Assembly (NCBI RefSeq): GCF_030123065.1
Contig: NZ_CP126093.1
Coordinates: 376,001-440,000, forward strand
Direction: 5' to 3'
From: Neobacillus sp. DY30
Lineage (GTDB): Bacteria > Bacillota > Bacilli > Bacillales > Cytobacillaceae
DNA length: 64,000 nt
A model generated the notes under the pieces. It was given only the letters and a program-made list of their open reading frames with translations, was not told the origin of the DNA and searched no databases. Numbering within the stretch: position 1 is the stretch's first letter; the number at the start of each line of letters is the position of its first letter. Below are positions 61,226 through 64,000 of this stretch, piece by piece. The translations under genes were made by a program, and so were the position numbers.

Positions 61226-62596
61226 ATGAAAAAAACAATACCGGTTAAAAAGAATGATTACATAGATGTGGTATTTGAGGATTTAACACATGATGGTACT
61301 GGAGTAGCGAAGGTGGATGGCTACCCATTATTCATACCAAACGGTCTGCCTGGTGAAAAGGCGCAGGTTAAAGTGATAAAAGTGAACAAAGGCTACGGGT
61401 TCGGGCGCTTAATTGAAATCTATGAAAAAAGTCCATACCGCGTAGAGATTCCTAGCAGCGAGACACACAAGTATGGCGGCTGTCAGCTAGAACACATCAG
61501 CTATGAAGGACAGCTGAAATATAAGGAGAATCAAGTGCGTCAGGTACTGACCAGAATTGGAAAACTAGAGGACGTGATTGTTCATCCAATTTTAGGGATG
61601 GACAACCCATGGCATTATCGAAATAAAGCACAGGTACCAGTCGGTGAAAAAGATGGTAAGCTGATTGCTGGATTTTTTAAGCCTAGAAGTCATGAAATCG
61701 TGGATACAGATGAGAGTCTAATCCAGCTGCCTGAAATTAATGAGGCAGTTAAAGCTGTAAAAGAAATTTGCAGCAGATTAGGGATATCTGCCTATCAAGA
61801 AGAATCACATAAAGGTATTCTTCGCCATATTATGGCTCGTTATGGACAACAAACAGGTGAGCTGATGGTTGTGCTGATTACCAGAACGAATGATATTCCA
61901 AACAAAAACAAATTGGTTGAGGAAATAATCGCACGCCTTCCTAAAGTGAAATCAATTGTACATAATGTGAATTCAAAGCGTACAAATGTAATCCTTGGCG
62001 AAAAAACAACGATCCTTTGGGGTAATGAAGTGATCTATGACTTAATAGGAGACGTTAAGTTTGCGATATCAGCTCTTTCTTTCTATCAGGTAAATCCTAT
62101 TCAAACGAAGGTCCTTTATGATAAGGCACTGGAATATGCAGGGCTAAGTGGGCAAGACTCAGTAATCGATGCATACTGCGGAATCGGAACAATATCACTG
62201 TTTTTAGCGCAAAAGGCAAAGAAGGTCTTTGGAGTAGAAGTTGTTCCAGAAGCGATTGAAGATGCGAAACGGAATGCAGAGATCAATGGTATGACAAATG
62301 TAGAGTTTGCAGCTGGGGAAGCAGAGGTTGTGATTCCAAAGTGGTATAAAGAGGGGAATTCGGCGGATGTGCTGGTTGTTGACCCTCCGCGTAAGGGCTG
62401 TGACGAAACGTTTTTGCAAACAATAATTGAAATGAAACCGAAAAAGGTAGTTTATGTATCCTGTAATCCAGCCACACTTGCGCGTGATTTACGGATTCTT
62501 GAAGATGGTGGTTATAAAACGGTCGAAGTTCAGCCTGTTGATATGTTTCCGCAGACGACGCACGTAGAAGTGGTCACTAGTATAGTCCTCCAATAA
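61226..62596 (+). CDS. rlmCD: 23S rRNA (uracil-5-)-methyltransferase RlmCD (YefA)
   Basis: This SAM-dependent enzyme methylates uridines of 23S rRNA; the Bacillus YefA type does both sites made by RlmC and RlmD in Gram-negatives. The 456-residue protein has an N-terminal TRAM domain ([20 protein letters not shown]), the SAM motif [14 protein letters not shown] at about 313-326, DPPRKGCDE, and the nucleophilic Cys in [12 protein letters not shown]. In the usual Fe-S region only one Cys is seen (KYGGCQLEH), so a 4Fe-4S cluster is doubtful. It ends the conserved backbone; the Wadjet gene starts 213 bp later. Confidence 0.93.
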
Positions 62597-62672: not shown

Positions 62673-62808
62673 TTTGAGTGAAATTTGTCCAACTACAAGT
62701 GCATTATAGTTCTATCCTAACGGTTCACTAGACCCACAATAAAGGATTGGTATATCATGGAATTAGCAAAAGGAAATGGTAGGAAATTTTCTCCCAAGTT
62801 TTAATGAG

Positions 62809-64000
62809 GTGATTACTATAAATTTATTTAACATAATCTCTGAAGATTTTTTCAAACCACTAACTAGTAAATATAAAGCAACTTATATTGATTGTATCCG
62901 GCTAATATACAATACATATAAAACTGAATTGTCGTTTGGTGTTGATAAAGAAGTTATACTTACAGAACTAGAAAGTTATTTTGAAAATCAATCAAGTGAG
63001 GATATGATATTTGACGATAACGAAGAGATTGCTAAAGATTCTAGAGCAAAAGCAAATGCAATTTTACGTAGCTTGAAGGAAAGTGGTTGGATTGAGTATG
63101 AGGTTTCCAATGACTATAAGGTAAAGATAAATTTGTTTGATTATGCTGCTACTATGATAGAATCTTTCAACAAGATATTAAAGAATGAAGAAATGGAATA
63201 TCAGAGTCTAGTATCTCAAATACATGCCACCCTTTTGAATAAAGAAGCCTATGTGAAGCCCTATGAATATATTATAAAACGTGTAGTAGAAAATACGGAA
63301 GAATTAATAACAGGTCTAAAGAAACTAAATACCAATATAAAGAAATATATTGATGCTATTACAAATGAAAAGACGGCTGGGGAAATTGTACAGGATTTCT
63401 TTGTATATCATAAAGATATCGGATCTAAAGCCTATCATCGTATTAAAACAAGTGATAATATATCACATTTTAGAACGTCAATAATTGAGAGTCTTTACAA
63501 CATATTGAACGATAGAAATATTTTCGAGCGTGCGGTACTAGGCTATATGGAAATAGAGCAAGTAGAAAAAAAAGCAGATGCAGAAGATTCATTGCGAGAA
63601 AAGATACTAAATGTTATTTCGGCCTTTAGAAATTATGATGATATTATTTCTGAGATAGACAACAAAAACGCTAAATACATAGGAAGTGCTGTGGCAAGAG
63701 CAAAGTTCCTGTTGACTAATACAAATAATGCAGAAGGTAAGATTTCAAAGATACTAGCGTATTTATCTAATGAATTTAATCGTGATGAAAACATAAACCT
63801 ATATGATGAGGTGGATGACACGCTCCTTGAGGTGTTTAATATATTCCCACAAGGATTTATCGATAGTGACTCGCTATATGTAGTTCCTATTTCAAGGAAA
63901 ATGTCTATGCCACAAGAACTTAGCCCTACGCTGGGGATTTCGGAAGATGAGCGAGAACGACGGAAACTTGCTTTACATGAAAAAAATAAGAATAGATTTT
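62809..64000 (+). CDS. jetA: Wadjet defence protein JetA (DUF5716 type), 3' end outside window
   Basis: This gene is open to the window end, giving about 397 residues so far. It has the JetA pattern: NLFNIISEDFFKPLTSKYKA, then YIDCIRLIYNTYKTELSFGVD, ESGWIEYEVSNDYKVKINLF, LKKLNTNIKKYIDAI, SKAYHRIKTSDNI and NAKYIGSAVARAKFLL. JetA is the kleisin-like (MukF-like) subunit of Wadjet, an SMC-family system that cleaves foreign plasmid DNA; partners are JetB, JetC and JetD, expected downstream. About 22 ATA codons show a more AT-rich codon use than neighbours. The start may be GTG 62809, or ATA 62818, which matches where relatives begin (NLF) and lies five bases after GAGGTGA. Confidence 0.82.
   Translation, partial: MITINLFNIISEDFFKPLTSKYKATYIDCIRLIYNTYKTELSFGVDKEVILTELESYFENQSSEDMIFDDNEEIAKDSRAKANAILRSLKESGWIEYEVSNDYKVKINLFDYAATMIESFNKILKNEEMEYQSLVSQIHATLLNKEAYVKPYEYIIKRVVENTEELITGLKKLNTNIKKYIDAITNEKTAGEIVQDFFVYHKDIGSKAYHRIKTSDNISHFRTSIIESLYNILNDRNIFERAVLGYMEIEQVEKKADAEDSLREKILNVISAFRNYDDIISEIDNKNAKYIGSAVARAKFLLTNTNNAEGKISKILAYLSNEFNRDENINLYDEVDDTLLEVFNIFPQGFIDSDSLYVVPISRKMSMPQELSPTLGISEDERERRKLALHEKNKNRF

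Follow-up and report, generated by a model that had tools for sequence, protein, structure and literature searches.

Type I Wadjet systems consist of the genes jetABCD, and the subunit roles used here, those of a kleisin (JetA), a KITE subunit (JetB), an SMC-like ATPase (JetC) and a Toprim nuclease (JetD), are taken from a review (PMC10586767) and a Wadjet paper (PMC12287153). By homology, JetABC would extrude small circular DNA and pass it to JetD for cutting. The operon described here resembles these systems in gene order, in its four protein families and in its Walker and Toprim motifs, and would differ from them in the weak AUA start proposed for jetA. The literature that we searched (on Wadjet, AUU/AUA starts and non-canonical starts in defence systems, mostly open-access papers) yielded no report of a weak jetA start, and in PMC12287153 the only start codon mentioned concerns a vector.

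The closest described parallels for the start codon come from Staphylococcus aureus, in which infC, cvfC1, ccpN and citZ start at AUU or AUA, most of them behind an extended Shine-Dalgarno sequence (2026; PMC13009471). Reporters of cvfC1, ccpN and citZ gave about 10% of the AUG level in poor medium, with ccpN rising to as much as 30% in rich medium; the weak starts of cvfC1 and ccpN are conserved across species, and that of citZ is found in one S. aureus lineage only (PMC13009471). Like these genes, jetA combines an AUA or AUU codon with a strong proximal Shine-Dalgarno sequence; unlike them, it belongs to a mobile defence system and occurs in genomes of different classes.

The closest parallel for the genomic site is provided by streptococcal ICEs, in which a serine recombinase integrates in rumA and exchanges the 3' part of that gene (PMC4701971). 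In this sense the mechanism of integration at rlmCD/rumA is already known from streptococci. The site described here shares with the streptococcal elements the gene family, the recombinase on the facing strand at the gene end and the swap of the C-terminal tail; it differs in genus, in the use of two rlmCD-like genes and in orphan tails that point to successive insertions. No report of an rlmCD attachment site in this genus was found in the literature searched.

The window analysed here, a stretch of 64,000 nucleotides, covers positions 376001-440000 of the 6.14-Mb single-contig genome of Neobacillus sp. DY30 (window base n is genome position 376000+n). We think it likely that the type I Wadjet genes at its right edge are the cargo of a serine-recombinase insertion at the 3' end of rlmCD, and that a weak start of jetA keeps JetA low and limiting. 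The weak-start habit of jetA, and the rlmCD attachment site with its orphan tails in the genus, go beyond a preliminary description of the window.

A complete type I Wadjet operon

The open frame that reaches the window edge begins at 62776 on the + strand and comprises 482 amino acids in full, counted from that position; its stop ends at genome position 440224. It matches PADLOC JetA1 (PDLC00442; 572.5 bits, E 1.7e-172) and Pfam PF18982 (DUF5716; 345.5 bits, cut-off 26.2), in agreement with the preliminary description, which had taken the open gene for jetA. The JetA peptides quoted there are all present in frame, although AVARAKFLL lies about two-thirds along the protein rather than at the C terminus. 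The position 62690 given there holds as an approximate boundary of the region, but the gene itself most likely begins at 62818 and runs past the window edge at 64000. It had also been called richer in AT than the genes before it, as is borne out by a third-position G+C of 0.249 against 0.365 for rlmCD; the values for jetB to jetD are 0.245-0.264.

As had been predicted, jetB, jetC and jetD follow directly and in that order, co-directional with jetA, and the genes for the SMC-like ATPase and the Toprim nuclease end less than 6 kb to the right of the window edge. The first of the three, jetB (genome 440230-440853), starts 5 nt after the jetA stop and matches PADLOC JetB1 (241.2 bits) and Pfam PF13835 (DUF4194; 121.9 bits). 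The start of jetC (440825-444031) lies within jetB, and its product scores 1081.1 bits with JetC1, against 38.5 for the best JetC2 model, with Pfam matches to SbcC_Walker_B/AAA_29. Overlapping jetC by 4 nt, jetD (444028-445200) encodes a protein with matches to JetD1 (394.1 bits) and PF09983 (JetD_C; 82.9 bits). All four proteins cover nearly the full length of the PADLOC type I models. In NCBIfam, JetC has sub-cut-off matches only and the other three proteins have none, and phmmer at E 0.001 found no PDB chain for JetA, JetC or JetD.

The catalytic motifs are conserved in alignments with relatives. The predicted acidic Toprim residues of JetD (E266, D313 and D315) are unchanged in 17 rows, the JetC Walker A motif GEN..GKST is kept in 19 rows, and the signature YGEKSGGETQT and the Walker B motif DEAFDKMD appear in every row long enough to show them. 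Judged from these matches and motifs, the genome carries a complete, ordinary-looking type I Wadjet jetABCD operon, for which plasmid restriction is the expected function.

Start codons of jetA and the dose of JetA

The similarity of JetA to its relatives begins at INLFNII, the first codon of which in the window is the ATA at 62818-62820 (+ strand). We propose this codon as the start of jetA from its duplex energy and from the start-aligned codons of relatives. Immediately upstream, at 62806-62813 (+ strand), lies the Shine-Dalgarno sequence GAGGTGAT, which pairs over 8 nt with the 16S 3' end GGATCACCTCCTTTCT, present 10 times in the genome.

Start codons were surveyed in 48 loci, 47 of them with a JetA match, and in 5 loci added later. 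Dropped from the final count were L042 (start missing), L046 (no match), rows below 55% JetA identity, the re-fetched copies L117-L121, L122 and L142 as presumed copies of L051 and L049 (equal upstream bases, equal identity), and L047 and L048 (47% identity; ATG one codon upstream). Among the remaining 20 sequences of at least 55% identity, window included, the start-aligned codon is AUA in 4 (the window's locus L002, L036, L038 and L050), AUU in 4 (L037, L053, L123 and L124), CUG in 1 (L049), GUG in 6 (L039, L040, L041, L045, L054 and L207), UUG in 2 (L051 and L208) and AUG in 3 (L043, L044 and L052). All 20 codons are thus ATG or one base away from it, and 17 are not AUG. Two of the nine sequences with AUA, AUU or CUG have no in-frame ATG, GTG or TTG upstream: L124 (AUU), with an in-frame stop 3 codons upstream, and L049 (CUG), with one at -5. 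Because no canonical start is available between stop and aligned codon, the AUU of L124 and the CUG of L049 are forced, unless translation begins inside the conserved region.

Such starts are not general in Wadjet, since distant JetA sequences mostly have ATG or GTG. The distant rows added later include L209 (40% identity; ATG) and L210 and L211 (both 40%; TTG). The distant L126 (35%) has no canonical start back to the stop and carries an ATT two codons upstream, behind a Shine-Dalgarno sequence. A tree of 39 JetA rows (8 copies or fragments among the 47 were omitted) unites 18 members of the clade in one supported group (96/80), the inner order of which is mostly open, so that independent changes of start codon were left uncounted. 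The codons used would be somewhat unexpected from codon usage (chance 0.015 for five of five Val codons being GTG, 0.12 for both Leu codons being NTG and 0.32 for the lack of Ile ATC; related sequences are not independent), a test that we found too weak on its own to serve as the main argument for weak starts.

The other genes of the same operons keep ordinary starts. Of 17 readable jetB rows, 16 begin with ATG and 1 with TTG; all 20 jetC rows show an ATG either at MKK or no more than two codons away; and jetD has ATG in all 13 rows readable at the aligned place, the further rows having ATG one or two codons on (3), being unreadable (1) or giving no match (3). In the window's operon the ribosome-site energies behind ATG are -12.3 for jetB, -15.4 to -17.7 for jetC and -8.4 for jetD. 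For comparison, infC is the classical AUU-start gene. Its start, read from sequence context, is non-AUG in all ten chosen genomes (8 ATT, 1 ATA and 1 ATC; ATT in the window's genome), and its build of weak codon and Shine-Dalgarno sequence resembles that of jetA. In genome G599, both infC matches (L159 and L161) contain one in-frame TAG, possibly a sign of a broken copy, a contig edge or a recoded TAG.

By analogy with the S. aureus AUU and AUA reporters, the output of jetA should be low. We suspect that in this branch of Wadjet a weak start codon such as AUA, preceded by a strong Shine-Dalgarno sequence, yields little JetA, and that the scarce kleisin would limit the number of complete nuclease complexes. 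JetA in particular could be limiting, because jetB, jetC and jetD have their own ribosome sites behind ATG. Wadjet cuts DNA in its own host cell, and its dose must stay safe; a weak start that relatives share in one subunit gene, with AUG retained in the other three, would be a concrete dosage safeguard and one that is experimentally accessible.

Alternatively, the AUA and AUU starts may have arisen by neutral drift in a gene that needs little product, without any regulatory use, a reading to which we give somewhat less than an even chance. Drift would suit the variety of starts within the clade (from AUA, AUU and CUG to GUG, UUG and AUG), but it would hardly lead one to expect non-AUG starts in 17 of 20 jetA genes whereas the other three jet genes have AUG almost throughout, nor a Shine-Dalgarno sequence that is stronger where the start is weak. 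In the main set, all 15 non-AUG rows have an energy of -10.1 or below, and the 3 AUG rows lie between -7.4 and -8.0, although this contrast is not clean: among the added rows, the non-AUG L207 (-12.1) and L211 (-10.1) fall in the range of the other non-AUG rows, while L208 (UUG, -9.2), L210 (-9.5) and L209 (AUG, -10.7) blur it, and strong Shine-Dalgarno sequences are not confined to weak starts.

If the weak start does set the dose of JetA, it might further be under IF3-type control like infC, with the nuclease complex low in normal growth and rising when initiation fidelity falls (e.g., when IF3 is limiting). We regard this extension as rather unlikely; if true, the choice of start codon would be a conserved safety catch on an immune system.

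Position of the jetA start in the window

Two canonical codons lie in frame upstream of the AUA in the window, GTG(-3) at 62809-62811 and ATG(-14) at 62776, both with weak Shine-Dalgarno pairing. The duplex energy with 16S rRNA, computed on the bases 4-20 nt upstream of each candidate, is -13.1 for the ATA at 62818, 0.0 for the GTG and -3.3 for the ATG, and the intragenic mean at sampled positions is -3.6. The same holds for all 8 AUA/AUU sequences (window included), with energies between -10.1 and -14.9 at the aligned codon and nothing stronger than -6.0 at any upstream start. On these grounds jetA very probably starts at the AUA at 62818, and neither at the ATG nor at the GTG within the Shine-Dalgarno sequence.

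It is improbable, in our judgement, that jetA starts at one of these two codons and that the AUA is a plain isoleucine codon. Both are legal starts in the open frame and might be picked by a gene finder, and the start-aligned residue is always hydrophobic (I, V, L or M) in the close clade, which a constraint on the protein could account for; yet, their poor pairing apart, the GTG overlaps the Shine-Dalgarno sequence itself (it is in frame inside it in 6 of the 8 AUA/AUU sequences, and relatives read GTA, GGT or TGA there), L124 and L049 are unable to use an upstream GTG, and similarity upstream of the Shine-Dalgarno sequence is slight even between the window and L036, the JetA of which is 95% identical. 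In that pair, 12 of the last 15 bases before the start are alike, the next blocks agree at 3, 5 and 7 of 15, and L036 has no counterpart of the ATG at 62776. Complete dissimilarity of the two upstream of the Shine-Dalgarno sequence would be too strong a claim, since 12 of 200 shuffles score at least as high as the gapped alignment (-120 to -20), and a faint similarity is possible there. If the AUA start is right, gene finders are expected to misplace the start of jetA in this branch.

A structured leader before jetA was considered and set aside, the folding being not unusual (z +1.81). A promoter scan for jetA gave one weak forward match, with 4 matches overall against 1.5 expected by shuffling.

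The 3' end of rlmCD and its cargo

The gene preceding jetA, at 61226-62596 (+ strand), we take, from the preliminary description and from family knowledge (SCNP and TTHVE motifs), to be rlmCD, of the 23S rRNA uracil-5-methyltransferase family. The putative attachment-site region at its 3' end (62552-62596, + strand) comprises the QTTHVE codons and the genome's own tail, VVTSIVLQ and stop. Across 20 genomes of the genus, the proteins (100 amino acids or longer) encoded within 10 kb downstream of rlmCD have a mean sharing with the other genomes of 0.030, with 101 of 149 shared with none, against 0.659 and 20 of 201 within 10 kb upstream. This upstream side is the sole negative control for the insertion site. 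The preliminary description had suggested a conserved insertion site for defence genes after rlmCD; a variable locus with recombinases is indeed present, but it takes any cargo, of which defence genes are only part.

The site was followed in 60 loci from 61 genomes of the genus (G010, in which the contig ends at the gene, was left out; in 4 of the 60, the sequence beyond rlmCD is shorter than 3 kb). In 11 of the 60 loci, a serine recombinase gene or fragment lies on the facing strand less than 100 nt from the rlmCD stop, and with three queries such genes or remnants were found anywhere in the fetched stretch in 15; the recombinase of L056 has the Pfam Resolvase and Recombinase domains. After TTHVE, the 59 readable RlmCD ends carry 54 distinct tail strings. 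Many of these strings are variations on a few types, and part of this variety may be ordinary divergence. Orphan RlmCD tails number 25 on the forward strand (in 20 of the 60 loci, and including one in L111 that ends a broken rlmCD) against 1 on the reverse strand in 1.03 Mb, and none was found on either strand in 360 kb upstream of rlmCD. Some are equal or nearly equal to the RlmCD ends of other genomes. Taken together, the recombinase genes and the tails indicate that, in this genus, serine recombinases use the 3' end of rlmCD as an attachment site and that tails are swapped there. This would explain why unrelated cargo, defence genes included, follows the gene.

The window's genome itself has five orphan tails, at genome positions 454448, 454504, 461793, 470623 and 470679, and recombinase remnants begin 94 nt past the tail at 461793 and 64 nt past that at 470679. 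With at most one mismatch, the DNA of the tail start has 5 matches, against 0.35 expected in random sequence. We read the orphan tails as probable scars of successive insertions, from which the order of insertion can be read; the Wadjet genes would then lie in the stretch of about 15.9 kb between rlmCD and the tail at 454448. Serine recombinases would thus integrate DNA at the 3' end of rlmCD and may have brought the Wadjet genes as cargo. That the island merely sits in a slowly shuffled region without an attachment site, its orphan tails being there by chance, is very improbable: such a region would suit the lack of a recombinase match in the first 20 kb after rlmCD in the window's genome (one query), and a stretch that may be composite (only its right part recurs in G048), but not the strand bias of the tails and their absence upstream, their identity or near identity with RlmCD ends elsewhere, or the recombinase remnants close behind two of them, 94 nt from the tail at 461.79 kb and 64 nt from that at 470.68 kb.

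A second RlmCD-like gene (44% identity; L182-L201) was tried as a negative control site and rejected, being equally variable, with a downstream mean sharing of 0.010 and differing tails. Over 329 kb, its loci have 6 orphan tails on the forward strand and none on the reverse, and 5 of the 20 show recombinase traces. In the window's genome, the tail of the second RlmCD copy is one residue off the orphan tail at 470679.

Beyond jetD, the stretch contains an open reading frame of 616 amino acids (genome 446255-448105; L002 10256-12106) without a family match in PADLOC, Pfam or NCBIfam, in which RARNMLIHSG, near the end, presumably resembles the HEPN RNase motif. The next gene (448638-450239; L002 12639-14240) encodes an HNH_2 endonuclease (Pfam) and, after it, a row of six similar zinc-binding repeats (CPRC...CxxC, about 40 residues each); weak matches to the ECs_2282 CxxC and anti-TRAP families were also obtained. 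It is followed by genes with Pfam matches to DUF5677 (450719-451420), DUF6946 (451796-452902, from the second ATG) and a PLD nuclease (453008-454237, from the second ATG). The block of these last three (L002 14720-18238) recurs in G048 (L084 7499-10980), also after rlmCD, at 88, 94 and 96% identity, which shows shared recent cargo and not a demonstrated, deeply conserved unit; the block is possibly an uncharacterised defence cassette. Of 398 genomes of the phylum, DUF6946 was found in the window's own and in one other; it also matches 13 plasmid records, each with less than 80% of the query covered in one place. Profile scans of these five further genes of the first element matched no relaxase, coupling protein or type IV secretion family.

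For the genus as a whole, 119 proteins of at least 150 amino acids encoded after rlmCD in 20 genomes matched 123 PADLOC models at 1e-15, and 119 proteins drawn from 179 upstream matched 2 (summed length 44,264 amino acids downstream and 34,944 upstream); the count is of overlapping models, not of systems, and some, mad3 and mad8 among them, may reflect common regulators. The 25 downstream models listed include Gabija, Zorya ZorD, DpdE, LmuB and methyltransferases, and Pfam also finds many ordinary genes there (ABC transporters, sugar permeases and histidine kinases). The end of rlmCD is open to insertions in general, sometimes of defence genes.

JetC was found at 1e-20 in 2 of 61 genomes of the genus, the second of which (G028) shares 28% identity and has no JetA match in its 6.3-kb locus (L035). 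At 1e-30, JetA occurs in 1 of 299 genomes of the order, namely the window's own, and in 22 of 391 genomes of the class of the Alkaliphilus genome, 5 of them at 57% identity or more. With the cut-off at 1e-60, genomes with a JetA match number 9 of 299 in the phylum to which the Desulfoscipio genome belongs (2 above 70%), 6 of 227 in the order that includes the Alkaliphilus genome and 1 of 31 in that of G599. The nearest JetC proteins found are those of Robertmurraya massiliosenegalensis (83%) and Alkaliphilus pronyensis (Clostridia; 79%); a further match, L055, spans 21 residues of JetC. The viral contigs searched contained no JetA relative, phage records gave 2 partial JetC matches, and plasmid records gave 4 JetA matches at 19.6-27.6% identity. 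From this distribution and the low G+C of the operon we infer that the Wadjet genes probably arrived recently by horizontal transfer. Between the window and L036, identity declines along the operon (JetA 95, JetB 94, JetC 83 and JetD 74%); a recombination point may lie behind this, or a JetD that changes faster.

In 9 of the 60 loci, a gene for an ABC-F-like ATPase of 517 amino acids follows rlmCD at a distance of 1 to 18 kb and may represent the right flank of the variable region; in the 40 kb examined in the window's genome, this protein has weak ABC matches only.
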